A DNA stretch of 64,000 nt from the NCBI RefSeq assembly GCF_014701235.1, contig NZ_AP022873.1, positions 1,426,001 to 1,490,000 of the forward strand, written 5' to 3'. The notes under the pieces were generated by a model. The model made no database searches, was not told the origin of the DNA, and worked only from the letters and a program-made list of their open reading frames with translations. The position numbers and the translations under genes are program-made. Origin of the DNA: Dissulfurispira thermophila (GTDB taxonomy: Bacteria; Nitrospirota; Thermodesulfovibrionia; Thermodesulfovibrionales; Dissulfurispiraceae). Positions 42,647 through 53,028 of the stretch are shown here, one piece after another (the stretch's first letter is position 1; each line of letters begins with the position of its first letter).

Positions 42647-43558
42647 ATGGATATACATCAATTAAAGATTTTTACATCAGTATTCAAAAATAAGAGCTTT
42701 TCAAAAGCCTCAGAAGAACTCTATCTCACTCAACCAACTGTAAGCGACCATATCAAAGTCCTCGAAGATGAGCTAAATTGCAAGTTATTCGATAGGCTTG
42801 GCAGAACAATAATGCCTACAAAAGAAGCAGAGGTATTATTCAACCATGCATTGGAAATTATAGAAAAGGCAGACAATATAAAAGACCTCTTGTGCAACCT
42901 AAAAAAAGAGATTTCTGGAGATATAATTATTGGTGCAAGCACAATTCCGGGCACATATTTAATGCCTTCTATCGTGGCAAAATTCAAGAAAGTATATCCA
43001 TCTGTCTCATTCCAGATACTCATCTCAGATTCCAGAGACATTGTAGAAAAAATTTCGAGACATGAATTGCTCATTGGAATCGTTGGAGCAAGACTTACCA
43101 ATTCTCAGATAACTTACACACCATTTCTTGAAGATGAACTGATTGTAGTATCATCTCCTAAATTAATTAAAAATAAGCATATGACATTAAAAGAACTCAT
43201 GAAATTGCCTATTGCTCTGCGTGAAGAAGGCTCAGGAACAAGAAAAGAAACCGAAAAAATACTCGAAAACAATGGTATCTCCATTGAAAATACTAAAGTT
43301 GCTGGCATCTTTGGTTCAACAGATGCAGTAAAACAAGCTGTAAAAGCAGGATTAGGGATTTCTATATTATCAAGGCTCTCTGTGAAAGATGAGCTTAAAT
43401 ATGGAATACTCAGAGAAATAAAGCTGACCGACATCAAGATGAACAGGATGTTCTATATCGTAACCCACAAAAAGAGAACCCTACCGACTGCCTACAGCAT
43501 ATTTTTAGACCATGTCAGAACTGAATCAAAAAATGTCCACAACACCATTAAACCCTAA
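42647..43558 (+). CDS. LysR-family regulator, selenium-metabolism-associated type
   Basis: A 303-residue LysR protein. The HTH region is MDIHQLKIFTSVFKNKSFSK then ASEELYLTQPTVSDHIKVLE. The effector domain begins GDIIIGASTIPGTYLMPSIV, the G-A-S-T-I-P-G-x-YL-(L/M)P signature I associate with the selenium-linked and CysL-like LysR subgroup. Start 42647 gives the family N-terminus; the frame stays open upstream to 42590. It precedes the tRNA-Sec-like gene and yedE, supporting a sulfur or selenium role, but its targets are inferred only. Confidence 0.85.
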   Translation: MDIHQLKIFTSVFKNKSFSKASEELYLTQPTVSDHIKVLEDELNCKLFDRLGRTIMPTKEAEVLFNHALEIIEKADNIKDLLCNLKKEISGDIIIGASTIPGTYLMPSIVAKFKKVYPSVSFQILISDSRDIVEKISRHELLIGIVGARLTNSQITYTPFLEDELIVVSSPKLIKNKHMTLKELMKLPIALREEGSGTRKETEKILENNGISIENTKVAGIFGSTDAVKQAVKAGLGISILSRLSVKDELKYGILREIKLTDIKMNRMFYIVTHKKRTLPTAYSIFLDHVRTESKNVHNTIKP

Positions 43559-43707: not shown

Positions 43708-43823
43708 TCAAAAATTGTAAGACTTTTTTTAGCACAGAAAAACAGACTTACAAAATAAAAAATAACATCAAACCCTATGATCAACAATCTATGACTCTTG
43801 TCTTTTTCATAGATATTTTCTAT

Positions 43824-43852
43824 TTGACTTATTGATTATCTCTATCTTATTT
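43824..43852 (+). promoter_or_regulatory. Candidate promoter of the tRNA
   Basis: TTGACT (43824-43829), 17-nt spacer, TTATTT (43847-43852). The expected transcription start falls about 8 nt further, at or just before the mature 5' G of the tRNA (43861). The region is AT-rich. Confidence 0.45.
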
Positions 43853-43860
43853 TTCTTGCT

Positions 43861-43987
43861 GAGGGGTATGGGGCTGTTGGCTGCCCCACCTGGTCTGCAA
43901 AACCAGAGTCACGGTAAAAGACAGGTCTCATAAACCTGTTTCTTTGGAAGAAGCCGTGGTGGGTTCAATTCCCACTGCCCCTCTCCA
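43861..43987 (+). tRNA. tRNA-Sec-like tRNA-Cys(GCA) with a giant branched variable arm
   Basis: The 127-nt gene includes an encoded CCA (43985-43987). The acceptor is 8 bp (GAGGGGTA with TGCCCCTC, one U-G pair), discriminator U (43984), T stem 5 bp (GTGGG / CCCAC) with loop TTCAATT, so an 8/5 branch as in bacterial tRNA-Sec. The D stem is 6 bp (TGGGGC / GCCCCA, 43869-43888). The anticodon arm is CTGGT-CTGCAAA-ACCAG (43890-43906), anticodon GCA at 43897-43899. The variable arm (43907-43958, 52 nt) has a basal stem CACGG / CCGTG and two hairpins: ACAGGT / ACCTGT with loop CTCATAA, and TTCTT / AAGAA with loop TGG. GCA plus U73 are Cys identity elements; the body is Sec-like. It lies 56 nt before yedE. 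Confidence 0.8.
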
Positions 43988-44043: not shown

Positions 44044-45132
44044 ATGGAAGAAATTCAACAAGCAGGTATAATGGTTTTGATAAGTGGATTAGTAGTTGGT
44101 ATGCTTTTTGGTTTTGTACTGCAAAGAGGTAGATACTGCATGAACTCTGCATTCAGAGACATGATATTCATCAATGATTATACATTGCTTCGTTCATATT
44201 TGCTCGCGCTTTTAATTGCTATTATTGGCGCAAATCTGCTTGAGGATATGGGATTTATGGGAGATTCAGGATTAAGGAGACAGTCTTTCAATATCATAGC
44301 TAACATTATAGGTGGTTATATATTTGGTCTTGGTATTGTTGTAGCAGGCGGATGCGGAAGCGGTATTATTTACAGAATTGGAGAAGGCTATACATCTGCC
44401 TTCGTAGCAACATTAGGTTTTGCATCATCACTTGTTGCCACCATTCATGGACCTCTGAAGCCTATAATGCAATACCTGAAAAGCTTTAAAATTTCTATAG
44501 GAAATGGAGATGATGCAATAATCAATCCTGCATTATGGGATCTGGTTGGCGGTCATAGAATGAAATGGGTAGTAATAGCAATAATTGCTGCCATAATCAT
44601 ACCAATTGTATTAAAAGGCAAACCCTTTGCAAAAGGACCTAAAAAAGGTTATTCATGGTCGCTCACAGGGGTATTTTTAGGATTAGTGCTAATACTTGCA
44701 TTATGGGCATCTAATTATTGGGGCGGTCAGACAAGAGGACTTTCAGCAGCCGGACCAACAGCAGAGGCATATCTTGCTTTGATATTTGGTAATAGTATGT
44801 CAAAATTCGATCCAATGTTTGATTTCTGGGGATTGTTTAAGGGCACATGGAGTGCACTTTATATTTTCGGCATCCCATTAGGTGCTTATCTTAGTGCAAG
44901 AGGACTCGGAGAATTTAAACTGCAAGCACCTCCTGCGTCAGAAATAATGAGGGTCTTTGGAGGAAGCCTCATAATGGGATTTGGTGCTGCAGTAGCAGGA
45001 GGGTGCACAGTAGGTCATGCATTGACAGGTGTTTCTTCCTTAGCGCTATCAAGCATTGTAGCAACAATATTCATGATACTTGGCAACTGGACAATGGTAT
45101 ATTTCATGTTCATAAAACCAATGAAGGATTAA
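44044..45132 (+). CDS. yedE: YedE/YeeE family selenium/sulfur transporter
   Basis: A 362-residue membrane protein with about ten hydrophobic segments and duplicated YeeE/YedE motifs: LVVGMLFGFVLQRGRYCMNS with AFRDM near the N-terminus, GIVVAGGCGSGIIYRIGEGY, and in the second half FGAAVAGGCTVGHALTGVSS. The conserved cysteines (RYC, GGCGSG, GGCTVGH) are those that pass thiosulfate-type substrates in YeeE. YedE-type members are linked to selenium metabolism in genome surveys. Start 44044 is preferred because CGGAGGAAAGTT precedes it; the frame stays open to 43996, just 8 nt after the tRNA CCA. No Sec (UGA) codon is seen in it. Confidence 0.9.
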   Translation: MEEIQQAGIMVLISGLVVGMLFGFVLQRGRYCMNSAFRDMIFINDYTLLRSYLLALLIAIIGANLLEDMGFMGDSGLRRQSFNIIANIIGGYIFGLGIVVAGGCGSGIIYRIGEGYTSAFVATLGFASSLVATIHGPLKPIMQYLKSFKISIGNGDDAIINPALWDLVGGHRMKWVVIAIIAAIIIPIVLKGKPFAKGPKKGYSWSLTGVFLGLVLILALWASNYWGGQTRGLSAAGPTAEAYLALIFGNSMSKFDPMFDFWGLFKGTWSALYIFGIPLGAYLSARGLGEFKLQAPPASEIMRVFGGSLIMGFGAAVAGGCTVGHALTGVSSLALSSIVATIFMILGNWTMVYFMFIKPMKD

Positions 45133-45242: not shown

Positions 45243-45530
45243 ATGCGATTAAAGGCAATAATTATTATTCTATCAATACTGATATCGATACTTTCACCTA
45301 TATGTTTTAAGATAACTTTTTCAAGCCATGAAAATGTATCTGTAATAGCAACCCTCGATGTGTGTCATGCTAAAGACTCGATAAGTGCTGTTAGTTTAGA
45401 TACTCCTGCAATTAATGAGACTCAATTCACATTATATATGTTACATTCTATAGCTTCATATGATGCATCAAGACATCTTTCCAAAAATATTTTATTAGTT
45501 TTCCAAAAAGAACATCCGCCAAGATTCTAA
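45243..45530 (+). CDS. Small exported protein of unknown function
   Basis: A 95-residue protein with a hydrophobic signal-anchor (MRLKAIIIILSILISILSPI), a central VIATLDVCHAKDSISAVSLD segment and a C-terminal FQKEHPPRF. The TLDVCHA ... PP layout resembles small uncharacterised exported proteins that I recall from metal- and sulfur-metabolising bacteria. One conserved-looking Cys follows the signal. No domain is recognised. It sits between yedE and the YVTN gene and is followed by hairpins. Confidence 0.6.
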   Translation: MRLKAIIIILSILISILSPICFKITFSSHENVSVIATLDVCHAKDSISAVSLDTPAINETQFTLYMLHSIASYDASRHLSKNILLVFQKEHPPRF

Positions 45531-47005: not shown

Positions 47006-47791
47006 ATGTTGGAAAAAGACATCAACAAAGAAGTCTCAAGAAGGGAATTGATAGTAGGTGCTGGTGCACTTGCAGTTGGAGCCACTATCGCAAAATTTGG
47101 CAGTTTTGTATCAACCGCAGAGGCAAAAGGAAAATGGCCATGGCCTTATGAAAAACTTGACCCAGAGAAAACAGCAGAATTGGCATACAATGAATGGTAT
47201 AGGGTATTCTGCGGTGCTGCTGTTATAAGCAGCGTTTTCAGCCAGCTTTCAGAAAAAATTGGTGAGCCTTACAAATCATTTCCTGTCGACCCATTCATTG
47301 TTCTTGAAGGTGGCCTTGCGGGATGGGGAACTGTATGCGGTTCTATTGCAGGAGCTAATATAGTTACAAACATGATAATTGGTCCAAGAATTGCTGGACC
47401 TGATTGTGAGCACGGGCATGTAATCGGCTCTAATATCACCAAGTGGTATGGAGATACTAATCTGCCTGTATATGTTCCAAAAAATCCAAGGGCAAACAAA
47501 GATAGTATCGTTAGGACCACAAGTAATTCTCCACTTTGTCATATATCTGTAGGAAGGTGGATGAAGGCATCGGGTTATGCATTAAGCAGCAACGAAAGGA
47601 AAGACAGATGTGCAAGAGTAGCAGCAAGTGTAGCATATAAGCTCGTTGAAGACTTGAATGCATGGAAAGACGGAAAATATCATGAAGGGGTAGCATGGAG
47701 CGCAGCAAAACACTTTGGAATCACAGGACAGCAGAATTGCACTGACTGCCACGGTTCAAATATCCCAACTGCACCAAAGGCAAAAAAATAA
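47006..47791 (+). CDS. Split-Soret cytochrome c-like protein (C_GCAxxG_C_C type), Tat-exported
   Basis: A 261-residue protein with a Tat-like signal (SRRELIVGAGALAVGATIAK). The cysteine pattern FCGAAVISSVFSQLSEKIGE, GWGTVCGSIAGANIVTNMI, SPLCHISVGRWMK, DRCARVAASVAYKL and terminal heme motif NCTDCHGSN fits the C_GCAxxG_C_C/split-Soret family, whose founding cytochrome holds heme c in a dimer interface and an Fe-S cluster. The canonical C-GCA is reduced to CGAA here. Its redox partner is unknown; the propeller gene upstream is the natural candidate. TGGAGGG precedes the ATG by about 6 nt; a strong terminator follows. Confidence 0.82.
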   Translation: MLEKDINKEVSRRELIVGAGALAVGATIAKFGSFVSTAEAKGKWPWPYEKLDPEKTAELAYNEWYRVFCGAAVISSVFSQLSEKIGEPYKSFPVDPFIVLEGGLAGWGTVCGSIAGANIVTNMIIGPRIAGPDCEHGHVIGSNITKWYGDTNLPVYVPKNPRANKDSIVRTTSNSPLCHISVGRWMKASGYALSSNERKDRCARVAASVAYKLVEDLNAWKDGKYHEGVAWSAAKHFGITGQQNCTDCHGSNIPTAPKAKK

Positions 47792-47988: not shown

Positions 47989-48957
47989 ATGACAGTTTTA
48001 TGGGAAGACAAAGAGATTAGAAAAACTGCTGTTGAAACAATTCAAATCAATCTTGGAAATAAATGCAATCAAAGTTGTTATCACTGCCACATTAGTGCAT
48101 CACCTGCTGGTGATAAAAACATGAATGAAGAAACTGCTTTGCGTGTCTTAAAAAAACTTATAGATTTTTCACCACAACTCGTTGAATTCACAGGTGGAGC
48201 TCCTGAAATGAATCACAACCTAAAAATGTTAATCGAGGAGCTTTCAAAACATAAGATTAAGATTGCCATCAGAACAAATCTGACTATTTTAGATATGCCA
48301 GAATATTCAGAATTCATCAGCCTTTATAAAGAATATGGTGTAAAGCTTATCGCATCTCTTCCGGGATATTCCAGAGATATAACAGACAGACAGAGGGGGA
48401 AAGGGGTATTTGATAAGAGCATAGCTGTTCTCAAGAAATTAAATCATGTAGGTTATGGTAATAAAGCTCTTGAATTAGATTTAGTTCATAATCCCTCTGA
48501 CAATTGTCTTAAGTTTTCCACTGACCAACTTGAACATGACTATAAACAAATACTTAAAAAAGAGCATGGGGTTATTTTTAATAAATTAATCTCCATTACA
48601 AACTCACCAATAGGAGGCTTCAAGAGATATTTAATAAAAAGCAACAAATATGAAGACTATTTAAAACTCCTTGCTAACAATTTTAATTCTGACACTTTAA
48701 ATCATATTATGTGTAAGAGACTTGTATCTGTTGATTATCTCGGATATATCTATGACTGCGATTTTAATCTTGCACTTGGTATAAAGACAAGGGGCTATGA
48801 AAATAAAAAATTCTGGGAGATTAACTTTAATGATTTTAATCCTGAGATAAGTTGTGGTGAACACTGCTATGCATGCACAGCAGTAAATGGAAGCAGTTGT
48901 TACGGTAAATTATTGGATACAAAAAGCCAAATATTAAATTTATGCATGATTACATAG
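47989..48957 (+). CDS. ArsS-like radical SAM/Cys-rich (DUF3641) protein
   Basis: A 322-residue radical SAM enzyme. The cluster motif is CNQSCYHCHISASPAGDKNM (Cx3Cx2C) preceded by ETIQINLGNK. The C-terminal Cys-rich DUF3641 region has HIMCKRLVSVDYLGYIYDCD and CGEHCYACTAVNGSSC. The family includes ArsS (arsenosugar synthesis) and members with selenocysteine in this C-terminal region; all positions here are Cys. Two TIGR04282/04283-type genes nearby are known companions. The substrate, arsenic or sulfur/selenium related, is open. The ribosome-binding site is distant (AAGGGAG, about 13 nt). Confidence 0.87.
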   Translation: MTVLWEDKEIRKTAVETIQINLGNKCNQSCYHCHISASPAGDKNMNEETALRVLKKLIDFSPQLVEFTGGAPEMNHNLKMLIEELSKHKIKIAIRTNLTILDMPEYSEFISLYKEYGVKLIASLPGYSRDITDRQRGKGVFDKSIAVLKKLNHVGYGNKALELDLVHNPSDNCLKFSTDQLEHDYKQILKKEHGVIFNKLISITNSPIGGFKRYLIKSNKYEDYLKLLANNFNSDTLNHIMCKRLVSVDYLGYIYDCDFNLALGIKTRGYENKKFWEINFNDFNPEISCGEHCYACTAVNGSSCYGKLLDTKSQILNLCMIT

Positions 48958-48974
48958 AAGATTAGGAGAAAAAC

Positions 48975-49598
48975 ATGCTCATCGATGCAAGAGGCCATGC
49001 ATGTCCAAAGCCTGTTTTAATGGCTGAAGATGCTTTATTGAAAATAGAAGAAGGGATCATAGATATACTCGTGGACAACGAGGCTTCAGTCGGAAATCTC
49101 ACAAGATTTGCTAAAAAAAATGCCTTTTATTCAGAGACAATAAAAGAGGATAATTATTGGCGTGTAAAGATTGTAAAAGGCTACCCATGTGAAATATCAG
49201 AAAGCAGAGGACAGAAGACAGAAGATAGACAAAAGACTACAGAACAGATAAAAGGAACAGAAAAAGACCTACTGCTTATAATAGGCTCTGATACAATGGG
49301 CAAGGAAGAGGAACTCGGAAGGATCTTAATGAAGGCATTTTTTGAAACAATAAAGGTAACAAAGGAGATTCCACACACTATCTTTTTCCTTAATGCTGGA
49401 GTAAAACTCACAACTATGAATGAGGAAATTATTCCTATCCTTAAAGATATAGAGGCTATGGGTGTCGATATATTCTCATGCGGCACATGTCTTAAATATT
49501 ACAATCTTGAATCAGAGCTTAAAGTGGGTTATAGAGGCACAACAAATCATATTGTTGAGGGAATAAAGGACTTTAAAAAGACGGTATGGATTGGATAA
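48975..49598 (+). CDS. yedF: YedF family protein (TusA-like + DsrE-like domains)
   Basis: A 207-residue two-domain protein. The N-terminal TusA/SirA domain (residues 1-70) has the CPxP motif in DARGHACPKPVLMAEDAL; the C-terminal DsrE-like domain (about 95-207) starts LLLIIGSDTMGKEEELGRIL and has Cys in IFSCGTCLKYYNLE. This architecture defines YedF, linked by genome surveys to selenium metabolism and by homology to sulfur-relay proteins. A Lys/Gln/Arg-rich linker joins the domains. AGGAGA precedes the ATG. It is separated from yedE by about 3.8 kb. Confidence 0.9.
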   Translation: MLIDARGHACPKPVLMAEDALLKIEEGIIDILVDNEASVGNLTRFAKKNAFYSETIKEDNYWRVKIVKGYPCEISESRGQKTEDRQKTTEQIKGTEKDLLLIIGSDTMGKEEELGRILMKAFFETIKVTKEIPHTIFFLNAGVKLTTMNEEIIPILKDIEAMGVDIFSCGTCLKYYNLESELKVGYRGTTNHIVEGIKDFKKTVWIG

Positions 49599-49638
49599 TT
49601 CAATTGTCTAAATAAAAATAAAAACGAGGAGGTCTCAG

Positions 49639-50055
49639 ATGAAAAAGTATTTTGTATTAACAATGGTATTTGTATTCGTATTAACAACAGCAGCACTTGC
49701 AGCAAACTATGTAAAGCCTGATGAATTCAAAAAATGGATGGAAACAGGCAAGAAAACTATTATTGTTGACATACAGCCAAAAAATGAATTCCAGGCTCAT
49801 CATTTCAAAAACTCGATCGAGACAAATGCCTTTCCTGCAAAAACAGATGAAGAAAAAAAGAGGCTTGATTCTGTAATTGAAAAGATAAAAAAATCAAAAG
49901 ACGATGTTGTAATCATCTGTCCGAGAGGTAGGAGTGGAGCAAGTAATACATACGATTATATAAAATCAAAAGGGGTACCAGAAAATAGACTTTATATTCT
50001 CGAAGGTGGTATAGCAGGCTGGCCATACAAAGAAATGCTTATAAAAGGTAAATAA
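49639..50055 (+). CDS. Exported rhodanese-like sulfurtransferase
   Basis: A 138-residue protein with a cleavable signal peptide (MKKYFVLTMVFVFVLTTAAL, AlaXAla site LAA) and a single rhodanese domain. The active-site loop is IICPRGRSGASNTYDYIK with catalytic Cys, and the C-terminus LEGGIAGWPYKEM is typical. It should act in the periplasm on sulfane sulfur or similar. GAGG ribosome-binding site upstream. Context suggests delivery to the YedE or cytochrome system, which is inference. Confidence 0.9.
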   Translation: MKKYFVLTMVFVFVLTTAALAANYVKPDEFKKWMETGKKTIIVDIQPKNEFQAHHFKNSIETNAFPAKTDEEKKRLDSVIEKIKKSKDDVVIICPRGRSGASNTYDYIKSKGVPENRLYILEGGIAGWPYKEMLIKGK

Positions 50056-50067
50056 AAAGGTGTAGAT

Positions 50068-50736
50068 TTGAAAATTTCTGTAATAATACCTGCCTTTAAC
50101 GAAGAAAAACATATTAAGGCATGTATAAAATCAGCAAAAAATATTGAACCATTTGAAATAATTGTTGTTGACGGTAGCAGCACTGATAAGACAAAAGAGC
50201 TTGCAAAAGAAGAAGGGGTATTTGTTATACAAAGCCCAAAGGGAAGAGGCATCCAGATGAATATAGGTGCCTCTATTGCAAATGGCGATATATTGCTCTT
50301 TCTTCATGCTGACTCGGTTATTACCAACAGAGTGGATATAAGGGATTATATCGCCATGGGATATATAGGCGGATTTTTTAGGCTCAGGTTTAATGACAGC
50401 TCAATCTCTACAAAGCTTGTAGAATTTTTTGCAAATTTGAGGGCAAGGATGCTTTCACTTCCATATGGTGATCAGGCTATATTTATTAAAAATGATTTAT
50501 TCAAAAAAATCGGCGGCTTTAAGGAATATCCTTTCCTTGAAGATATTGAATTTGTCAGAAGATTAAAAAAATTTGGGAAATTAAGATATATCCAGCATAA
50601 TGTAATTGCATCTTCTCGAAGGATTCAAAAAGGCTATCCATTTTCGCCAATTCTAATAAGTATGAGAAATGCTCTAATAGTCTTGTTTTTTATGCTTGGG
50701 GTAAGCCCACATACACTTTTAAAATTTTACCGATAA
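50068..50736 (+). CDS. TIGR04283-type family 2 glycosyltransferase
   Basis: A 222-residue GT-A glycosyltransferase. It begins KISVIIPAFNEEKHIKACIK, with IIVVDGSSTDKTKELAKEEG, RGIQMNIGASIANGDILLFL and HADS (metal-binding region), and PFLEDIEFVRRLKKFGKL. The pattern fits the TIGR04283 family, which co-occurs with TIGR04282 and ArsS-type genes in arsenosugar-like clusters. The start is TTG at 50068, with AAAGGTG upstream. It lies 12 nt after the rhodanese gene. A C-terminal hydrophobic helix ends the protein. Confidence 0.85.
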   Translation: MKISVIIPAFNEEKHIKACIKSAKNIEPFEIIVVDGSSTDKTKELAKEEGVFVIQSPKGRGIQMNIGASIANGDILLFLHADSVITNRVDIRDYIAMGYIGGFFRLRFNDSSISTKLVEFFANLRARMLSLPYGDQAIFIKNDLFKKIGGFKEYPFLEDIEFVRRLKKFGKLRYIQHNVIASSRRIQKGYPFSPILISMRNALIVLFFMLGVSPHTLLKFYR

Positions 50737-50750
50737 ACCTATAATGTATA

Positions 50751-52418
50751 ATGATTGAGGAATTTTTAAAAGACTGCGTTTCATGCGGGATATGTAGAGA
50801 GATTTGCCCATTTTTATCAGAATATGGCACTCCTGATTTGATAATTTCAAAAAATCCAGAGACAGCTTTTTTATGCACCAATTGTAAGGCATGTGACCTT
50901 GTTTGTCCAAATAGTCTTTCACCATCAGAAGCACTCCATGAAACAAAATATAAACAAATAAAAGAAAACAACTTATCTGAAAATATTAAGACTGTTTTGA
51001 ATTCTGCAAATGGGTTTGCCATGAGAGGGCATAAATTCCCATTTGCTTATTATCAATCAAGTGAAACAGTATTCTGGCCTGGATGTGCACTTCAGGGCAC
51101 AAGACCTGATTTAGTCAAAAAGATTACAAAAATGTTGAAAATTGGACTGGTTCTTGACTGCTGTTTTGACCCATTATTCCAGAATGGAGACCTTGATGCA
51201 GTAAAATCAGCATCAGAAAGAATAAAAAAACGTTTAAACAAATATGGAATAAAGCACATTATTTTAGGATGCACAAACTGCAAAAAAATATTTTCACTAT
51301 ACATGCCTGAAATAAAAACAGAGCATATACTCGAAGCACTTCCAGAGATAAAATCAAAGCCAAAACATTATATTGAACTAAAAGATGCATATCTCCACCA
51401 CCCATGTCCGTCATTTCGATTTGCTTATATCAGGGAACTGGCAAATAAACACATCAAAGGATTTGTTTCTATTGCATCTCAAACCTCTCATCCTATGTGC
51501 TGCGGACTTGGAGGAGCTACACATGCACTATCAGAAAAACTCTCTGACCAATACACTGAAAAAATAATATCCGATACAAAAAAATCTCCGATTATCACTT
51601 ACTGCATGGGATGCAAAAACAAATATTTAAAAAAAGGTAAAGATGCTTATCATATACTCGAACTAATAACAGATTCAAAGCCTCTAAAACAGCCTGTTTC
51701 AGCAAGCCGCAAATGGCTTAACAGATTGCTTTTATCTATAGGACAACGGTTATTAAAAAGTAGAAAATTTATTCTTGCTGCAATAATTCTGATAGTAATA
51801 ATCTCTACAACATATCTCAGAAAATCAGGATATTTCTCCCCCGAATTACTGCTTGATTTTATCAGGCACTATAAAATTTTAGCACCTGCATTATTTATCC
51901 TCATTTATACTATTGGCCCAAGCATATTCATTCCCAGTCTGCCACTCACATTAGGCGCTGGTTTTCTCTGGGGACCATTCTGGGGGGTTATTTTCTCAAT
52001 AATAGGAGCAACTCTCGGTGCGTCAGTTCCGTTTCTTCTTGCTAGATACATTATAGGCAGCACCATAAAGGAGCGATTTAGTTATGCCCGATGGAAGTGG
52101 CTCAAAGAAAAAGTTGAGCATCATGGATGGAAAGCCGTTGCATTTACAAGAATTATTCCCATATTCCCCTATCCTGTTTTAAATTATCTTTTTGGAATCA
52201 CACCAATACCATTTTTGCACTATTTATGGAGTACATTTGTCTTCATGCTTCCTGCCTGTATTGCCTATGTAGCATTTGGAAGTTCTATGAGTGAATTAAT
52301 ACTAAAAGGCAATATAAAAGGCGTTATAATCGGTATCATAATTGCTACAATTGCAATGATGCTGCCTTTTGCCTTCAAAACATTTATAAAAAAGGTATTT
52401 CCTGAAAAAAATGAATAG
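50751..52418 (+). CDS. Fusion: ferredoxin/CCG heterodisulfide-reductase-like domain + TVP38 membrane domain
   Basis: A 555-residue fusion. Residues 1-60 hold two 4Fe-4S motifs (CVSCGICREICPF and CTNCKACDLVCPN). Residues about 110-310 hold CCG-type cysteine motifs seen in HdrB/GlpC (FWPGCALQGTRPD, DCCFDPLFQ, MCCGLGGATHAL). From about residue 335 a membrane VTT/TVP38 domain follows (FIPSLPLTLGAGFLWGPFWG, FTRIIPIFPYPVLNYLFGIT). The redox half suggests disulfide or persulfide chemistry tied to a membrane transporter-like domain. It overlaps the next gene by 8 nt. No frameshift is evident at the junction. Confidence 0.82.
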   Translation: MIEEFLKDCVSCGICREICPFLSEYGTPDLIISKNPETAFLCTNCKACDLVCPNSLSPSEALHETKYKQIKENNLSENIKTVLNSANGFAMRGHKFPFAYYQSSETVFWPGCALQGTRPDLVKKITKMLKIGLVLDCCFDPLFQNGDLDAVKSASERIKKRLNKYGIKHIILGCTNCKKIFSLYMPEIKTEHILEALPEIKSKPKHYIELKDAYLHHPCPSFRFAYIRELANKHIKGFVSIASQTSHPMCCGLGGATHALSEKLSDQYTEKIISDTKKSPIITYCMGCKNKYLKKGKDAYHILELITDSKPLKQPVSASRKWLNRLLLSIGQRLLKSRKFILAAIILIVIISTTYLRKSGYFSPELLLDFIRHYKILAPALFILIYTIGPSIFIPSLPLTLGAGFLWGPFWGVIFSIIGATLGASVPFLLARYIIGSTIKERFSYARWKWLKEKVEHHGWKAVAFTRIIPIFPYPVLNYLFGITPIPFLHYLWSTFVFMLPACIAYVAFGSSMSELILKGNIKGVIIGIIIATIAMMLPFAFKTFIKKVFPEKNE

Positions 52419-53028
52419 TTCTGCATTGGGCATCATGTTTAGAATCCCTGAGTACGGCAAGGTTAAGAGAAGACTTGCTGCCCAAATAGGAAATGACAAG
52501 GCTTTCAGGGCATATGTCGCCATGCTTTATGAGACAATACAAAATGTCTCTAATCTAACAGACATAGACATATATGGTTTTTATGAAGGAGCAGTGTCGG
52601 CACAACACAATTTACTTAAAATATTTCAATCAATCCCTCAACATGGAGAAGACCTCGGTGAAAAAATGTTTAATGCAATTAAATGGCTTTTTGAAAAAGG
52701 ACACAATAAAGCCATTTTAATAGGCGCAGATTCACCGGACCTGCCTATCGATTATATCAAAGACGCCTTCACAAAATTAGATGCTTTTAATCTTGTGATA
52801 GGTCCTGTAGATGATGGAGGTTATTATCTCATAGGCATGGACAGCCCTTTAGACACTATCTTTAAGGGAATGAAATGGGGCAGTAACAGCATAACTAAAG
52901 ACACCATATCTATTGCAGAAAGGCAAGGAATAAAATATTTTCTGCTCCCTCAATGGTATGACATAGATGATATCGAAGGATTAAATCGCTGGAGTTGTCA
53001 GCAGCCTGTCAAGATTCCATTGCCATAA
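52411..53028 (+). CDS. TIGR04282-type nucleotidyl/glycosyltransferase-like protein (DUF2064)
   Basis: A 205-residue GT-A-fold protein. Landmarks: IMFRIPEYGKVKRRLAAQIG (the P-x-x-G-x-x-KTRL variant of the family), KAILIGADSPDLPIDYIKDA and LVIGPVDDGGYYLIGMD. In the family this protein accompanies ArsS radical SAM and TIGR04283 glycosyltransferases. It is coupled to the Fe-S/TVP38 gene by overlap. The product is inferred to be a sugar-linked small molecule. Confidence 0.87.
   Translation: MNSSALGIMFRIPEYGKVKRRLAAQIGNDKAFRAYVAMLYETIQNVSNLTDIDIYGFYEGAVSAQHNLLKIFQSIPQHGEDLGEKMFNAIKWLFEKGHNKAILIGADSPDLPIDYIKDAFTKLDAFNLVIGPVDDGGYYLIGMDSPLDTIFKGMKWGSNSITKDTISIAERQGIKYFLLPQWYDIDDIEGLNRWSCQQPVKIPLP

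Follow-up and report, generated by a model that had tools for sequence, protein, structure and literature searches.

The window, by which we mean the whole 64,000-nt stretch of DNA analyzed here, carries a 127-nt gene for a tRNA that combines the body of a selenocysteine (Sec) tRNA with the identity elements of a cysteine tRNA. The gene belongs to a published kind, the Sec-like tRNA-Cys or selC* in the broad sense, a group that goes by the name of tRNAReC. What is new is the setting: this selC*-type gene lies in a selenium locus, with an operator-like site upstream. We found no paper describing such a site or a linkage of selC* to selenium genes, in a literature search outside of which the primary selC* papers lie. 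The explanation we favor, and hold to be reasonably probable, is that the tRNA serves as a backup under selenium control, with SelB bringing Cys to Sec codons.

Anatomy of the tRNA gene

The gene (G000:C1:1469861-1469987 in genome coordinates, where its sequence was read directly) has the following parts.

43861..43987, +, selC*-like tRNA-Cys(GCA) gene of the tRNAReC type, CCA encoded (93.8 bits with family model R1)
43861..43868, +, acceptor stem, 5′ strand, 8 bp, partner 43976-43983 (sequence, fold, covariation)
43869..43888, +, D arm, 6-bp stem UGGGGC/GCCCCA, 8-nt loop (sequence, fold)
43890..43906, +, anticodon arm, loop CUGCAAA, anticodon GCA at 43897-43899 (sequence, fold)
43907..43958, +, variable arm, 52 nt, basal stem 43910-43914/43954-43958 (fold, covariation)
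43959..43975, +, T arm, 5-bp stem GUGGG/CCCAC, no bulge (sequence, alignment)

The initial annotation described a tRNA-Sec-shaped body (8/5 branch, 6-bp D stem, encoded CCA) with the Cys anticodon GCA and U73, and a variable arm of 52 nt, and both the sequence and the fold agree with that description. The acceptor strands, GAGGGGUA and UGCCCCUC, form 8 bp including one U-G, followed by U73 at 43984 and the CCA at 43985-43987. The long acceptor, the 6-bp D stem and the long variable arm make the body tRNA-Sec-like, and U73 together with GCA are the Cys identity elements. The minimum free energy fold has −55.1 kcal/mol (z = −4.0), and 0 of 200 shuffles fold as well. Across 102 distinct homologs, the eighth acceptor pair is mostly A-U, and also G-C and C-G; the 8-bp acceptor is therefore backed by covariation.

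Probably because of the length of its arm, neither ARAGORN nor Rfam at gathering thresholds makes a call on this tRNA; standard finders miss it. Comparison with a tRNA-Sec covariance model, a check suggested at the outset, gives Rfam tRNA-Sec as the best family with 43.3 bits and an E-value of 1e-7, under the gathering score of 47, likely because of a 35-nt insertion in the variable arm. We put down to chance the weak Rfam matches to Diantho_3_UTR and Plastid-ycf2.

The variable arm

Is the variable arm really branched? The arm had been proposed to fold as a three-way junction, with two hairpins above the basal stem.

43920..43940, +, extra hairpin 1 (ACAGGU/ACCUGU) in the variable arm (compensatory changes in relatives)
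43941..43951, +, extra hairpin 2 (UUCUU/AAGAA), weak and poorly conserved (comparison with relatives)

The basal stem (CACGG/CCGUG) covaries strongly. In an alignment of 26 sequences it has 29 double-changed cells versus 8.7 in shuffles, and a covariation score of 0.666 versus 0.308 ± 0.037, which 0 of 500 shuffles reach. Hairpin 1 also stands, with compensatory versions in several relatives (ACGGGU/ACCCGU in G062, GGCAGGCC/GGUUUGCC in G227, GGCAAA/UUUGCC in G230, and GGCCU/AGGCC in G032). The own genus keeps it in the arm loop, as do G230, G227 and G032, which belong to three GTDB-style families; G203, G274 and possibly G140 have shorter forms, and G376 is without it. Hairpin 2 fares worse: it is replaced by another fold in G062, missing in G227 and dubious in G230, so that it is convincing in part of the own genus only and has poor support outside it. 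The description of the arm as branched holds in part: one inserted hairpin is conserved, and the second is weak.

Both hairpins sit in the loop of what is otherwise a typical class II arm, and this conserved gene is an example of a class II variable arm that holds an inserted hairpin and reaches 52 nt. Among relatives the arm varies widely in length, and this speaks against its having an essential, fixed role. To our knowledge neither CysRS nor SelB requires a long variable arm, and for that reason we think that the arm is probably tolerated or structural.

Homologs and their distribution

An IUPAC pattern consisting of the GCA anticodon loop, a long gap, the T loop, a 13-nt spacing, U73 and CCA matches in 50 of the 396 genomes of the phylum, all inside the own class, with 0 matches for the reversed pattern. 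When named genomes are scanned, the matches listed include Thermodesulfovibrionales, Desulfotomaculum and allied Bacillota, Actinobacteria and Chloroflexota, and among these listed matches bulged T-stem forms are present in the Bacillota relatives. The covariance model R1, built from 26 Nitrospirota members and with rough E-values, identifies 63 genes above 73 bits in the 141 genomes of the order. Its scores are bimodal, and the examined members of the second group (about 58-65 bits) are true selC genes. U73 is present in all covariance-model matches, the model itself having been trained on U73 sequences, and in the pattern-found homologs it is built into the pattern.

The initial annotation knew of no case with such an arm. 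The tRNA is not isolated: it is of the published selC*/tRNAReC kind, which is present in 59 of the 141 genomes.

One of the 63 genes (G362:C88:5391-5486, locus L278) is a selC*-like tRNA with U73 and the anticodon GUA (Tyr codons), 33 bp upstream of YedF. Four genomes have two selC* copies each (L269/L272 in G215, L273/L280 in G130, L247/L265 in G284, and L245/L266 in G300), and in G284 each of the two has its own SelB copy directly downstream.

Sec machinery in the same genome

The genome consists of a single closed contig (2.37 Mb). The initial annotation recommended looking elsewhere in it for an ordinary tRNA-Cys, a true selC, selB and selD, and all four are there: the ordinary tRNA-Cys, a true selC with anticodon UCA and G73 (C1:1899596), SelB, and SelD. 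In-frame TGA codons are present in the SelD gene and in a formate dehydrogenase gene. There is a single CysRS gene, which rules out a dedicated CysRS (cysS*). The Sec-like tRNA thus co-occurs with a canonical tRNA-Sec and a Sec-decoding machinery that looks intact as judged from selC, SelB, SelD and the dehydrogenase. Since the ordinary tRNA-Cys, CysRS, selC, SelB, SelD and the dehydrogenase are all in place, the Sec-like tRNA-Cys is an addition, not a replacement.

Co-occurrence of selC* with SelB is weak evidence, because 131 of the 141 genomes of the order have SelB. No full-length SelB match was obtained in four selC*-bearing draft genomes (G140, G170, G215 and G308).

A selenium locus

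The genes around the tRNA include the following.

42647..43558, +, LysR_Se regulator (NF040786, 318 bits, cut-off 250); ORF listed from 42590, with the start at MDIHQLKIF likelier
44044..45132, +, TsuA/YeeE-like transporter for sulfur (thiosulfate); start at 44044 supported by an RBS, listed ORF from 43996
47006..47791, +, split-Soret cytochrome c-like (C_GCAxxG_C_C) protein, a recurrent neighbor (profile match, neighborhood comparison)
47989..48957, +, ArsS-type radical SAM (seleno)protein family member (profile match)
48975..49598, +, YedF, sulfurtransferase-like selenium metabolism protein, a recurrent selC* neighbor (profile match, neighborhood comparison)

Across families, the commonest neighbors of selC* are LysR_Se and YedF, often immediately adjoining it, and 7 of the 7 LysR proteins sampled from selC* loci match NF040786. 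LysR_Se and YedF, and YedE as well, have been linked to selenium use (PMC5322559). Of the 63 selC* loci, 40 have at least one of LysR_Se, YedF and a second SelB no more than about 6 kb away, compared with 0 of the 21 true selC loci; this comparison overstates the number of independent events because loci of related genomes are not independent. The other 23 selC* loci are without the three linked genes within about 6 kb of stretch examined, and some of them come from contig ends. In five genomes of family f10, selC* is directly followed, after about 40 nt, by a second SelB gene (SelB*).

Other neighbors were seen along the way. A double-cubane-cluster reductase and its activase (clusters c3/c4) are recurrent selC* neighbors in several families. 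The window has, at 45243-45530, a small protein of about 95 aa with no Pfam or NCBIfam match, whose homologs adjoin selC* in 9 loci, and, over 47989-53028, matches to arsenosugar biosynthesis families (ArsS and the glycosyltransferases TIGR04283 and TIGR04282) alongside YedF.

Promoter and operator-like palindrome

Between the regulator gene and the tRNA there are two overlapping elements.

43809..43828, +, ATAGATATTTTCTATTTGAC, an operator-like palindrome that is spaced T-N11-A like a LysR-type box and overlaps the −35 element (motif search)
43824..43853, +, sigma-70-like promoter TTGACT-18-TATTTT, conserved in relatives (comparison with relatives)

Upstream of the window tRNA the palindrome has the form ATAGA-N5-TCTATTTGAC. 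Its TTGAC is the −35 of the promoter, and the promoter ends 7 nt before the tRNA. With a threshold of at least 9 of 11 matches, which was set after the motif was seen, the palindrome is found upstream of 32 of the 63 selC* genes, often at 34-37 nt, and the best of the 21 true selC genes has 8. The strict motif has 12 copies in the 141 genomes versus 1 for a reversed-pattern control, and all 12 exact copies are near selC*, LysR_Se, yedF or yedE.

Seven of these 12 copies directly precede selC*, with a wider gap in G087 and G203. G288 has the strict motif between LysR_Se and a divergent transglutaminase-selC*-yedF operon, and G252 has it upstream of LysR_Se and selC*. The motif also occurs in three genomes that have no selC*: in G306 before a Sec-type formate dehydrogenase gene divergent from LysR_Se, in G399 before yedF, and in G314 before yedE, beside LysR_Se. 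Searching under the motif in these three with model R1 turned up no hidden selC*. At the UGA-containing fdh gene of the own genome, the palindrome was not found within one mismatch.

Some leaders have features of their own. In G087 (L241) and G203 (L240) the operator is 90-100 nt upstream, as opposed to 34-37 nt at other loci, and a G/C-rich hairpin-like leader lies between it and the tRNA. In G306 (L340 1-860) the leader of the divergent formate dehydrogenase contains a perfect hairpin of 14 bp (ATGCAACCAGAGAT...ATCTCTGGTTGCAT) that may be an attenuator.

A T-N11-A palindrome near a −35 box, common to selenium genes, is what the sequence of a LysR_Se (NF040786) target promoter should present, and it is present here. 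The placement of the motif near selC*, LysR_Se, yedF, yedE and the Sec-type dehydrogenase makes LysR_Se the likely binder, and selC* a likely member of its regulon. Judging from sequence, LysR_Se probably binds the palindrome that overlaps the −35 box, and would thereby tie expression of the tRNA to selenium status. In archaea the LysR_Se protein is HrsM, a repressor of Cys isoforms under conditions of available selenium (PMC5322559).

What could the tRNA be for?

While anatomy, conservation, linkage and motif can be observed directly in the genomes, for the function we infer a series of steps. The ordinary CysRS would charge the tRNA with Cys by means of the GCA anticodon and U73, and the 13-bp acceptor/T branch would make the product a substrate of SelB rather than of EF-Tu. 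When Sec-tRNA is short, SelB would bring Cys to the SECIS-dependent UGA codons of selenoprotein mRNAs. The adjoining LysR_Se, through its putative binding and in the presumed direction of regulation, would tie transcription to selenium status. One argument against reading UGA as Cys is the third codon position, where GCA has to mispair. Of the specialized roles first put forward, suppressor decoding survives in this form, as Cys at Sec UGA codons through SelB; a general missense suppressor and a sulfur carrier are less likely.

The paper on tRNAReC is said to propose that a Sec-shaped Cys tRNA beside a working selC is a safeguard against selenium shortage. The linkage to a selenium locus and the shared operator-like site offer a direct and cheap test of that idea, and name a likely regulator. 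More tentatively, and with some doubt on our part, regulation may decide what UGA means in this order: LysR_Se, as a selenium sensor, would activate yedE, yedF, Sec-formate dehydrogenase genes and, along with them, a second Cys tRNA that depends on SelB, selenoproteins would then take on a Cys form under selenium shortage, and the conserved extra hairpin would be a lineage-specific control part acting in stability, sorting or competition with Sec-tRNA.

The TsuA/YeeE-like transporter, YedF and rhodanese-like proteins found as neighbors could suggest a different task, that of a dedicated Cys carrier off the ribosome (in sulfur or selenium trafficking, or in peptide or lipid aminoacylation) or of a Cys-tRNA sensor. 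We consider this unlikely given the conserved anticodon loop and 13-bp branch, the SelB* beside selC* in family f10, which points to translation, and the annotated neighbors, none of which is an aminoacyl-tRNA transferase gene. A minor tRNA-Cys that decodes UGC and UGU as sense codons, Sec-like by chance and under selenium control, seems to us equally improbable. GCA does read Cys codons and the single CysRS would serve both tRNAs, but an ordinary tRNA-Cys exists already, and for such a decoder the SelB-type body and the selenium linkage would be pointless.

Could the tRNA be charged with Sec after all? SerRS and SelA would have to make Sec-tRNA on it, and SelB to insert Sec at chosen UGC/UGU codons, a recoding that PMC11415595 reports for Aeromonas salmonicida. 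The Sec-like body with its 6-bp D stem and the presence of SelB and SelD would fit, but we judge it very unlikely, as the homologs have U73 throughout versus G73 in the own selC, SerRS recognizes G73 (PMC7609411), and the own genome has a normal UCA selC.

A cis-acting leader element or a degraded gene without tRNA function, an idea drawn from the position of the tRNA in the leader of the transporter gene with no terminator found between the two, is hardly credible against the covarying stems, the anticodon and T loops invariant across many families, and the genes downstream of selC*, which differ between loci. Random insertion or a pseudogene, which the initial annotation had allowed for, is ruled out by covariation and conservation: the basal stem and hairpin 1 of the arm are conserved in relatives, and a tRNA that is conserved, structurally constrained and selenium-linked is neither a dead gene nor a random insertion.

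Comparison with known systems

The favored reading, a SelB-dependent backup for Sec codons, has its closest precedent in Desulfotomaculum nigrificans, whose tRNAReC is reported to decode Sec UGA as Cys and to be carried by SelB, not EF-Tu (Vargas-Rodriguez et al. 2018, as summarized in PMC11415595). In PMC11415595, CysRS charging, SelB delivery and UGA-as-Cys decoding are reported for the D. nigrificans member only. The two tRNAs are alike in their Sec-like body, GCA and U73, and both occur alongside SelB and a canonical selC; the matches listed for our pattern include close relatives from Desulfotomaculum and allied genera. Unlike the D. nigrificans tRNA with its bulged T stem, the window tRNA has a fully paired 8/5 branch. 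It also differs by its 52-nt arm with the extra hairpin, and by the LysR_Se-type operator and selenium-locus linkage, which we did not find described in the reviews on tRNAReC.

The selC* tRNA-Cys (Mukai et al. 2017, reviewed in PMC7609411) are reported from anaerobes among Firmicutes, Thermodesulfobacteria, Nitrospirae and Proteobacteria, and according to that review they typically have an 8/4 branch with a bulged 51a, and sometimes a second SelB or CysRS. The likeness is that of a Sec-like Cys tRNA in anaerobes, Nitrospirae included, and the second SelB beside the gene, reported for Desulfobacterales and Syntrophobacterales, is repeated in this order by family f10. In the narrow sense of an 8/4 selC*, with a 4-bp T stem and bulged 51a, the window tRNA falls outside, as its T stem GUGGG/CCCAC is fully paired; it also differs in having GCA rather than UCA as anticodon, and a genome without cysS*.

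With the canonical bacterial tRNA-Sec (RF01852) it shares the 8-bp acceptor, 5-bp T stem, 6-bp D stem and long arm, and its T arm is identical to that of the own selC but for one loop base. It has GCA and U73 instead of UCA and G73, and an arm two to three times longer, and the true selC is elsewhere in the genome. With an ordinary tRNA-Cys, also encoded elsewhere, it shares the GCA anticodon, the CUGCAAA loop and U73, whereas its 8/5 branch and long variable arm take the place of the 7/5 branch and short variable loop.
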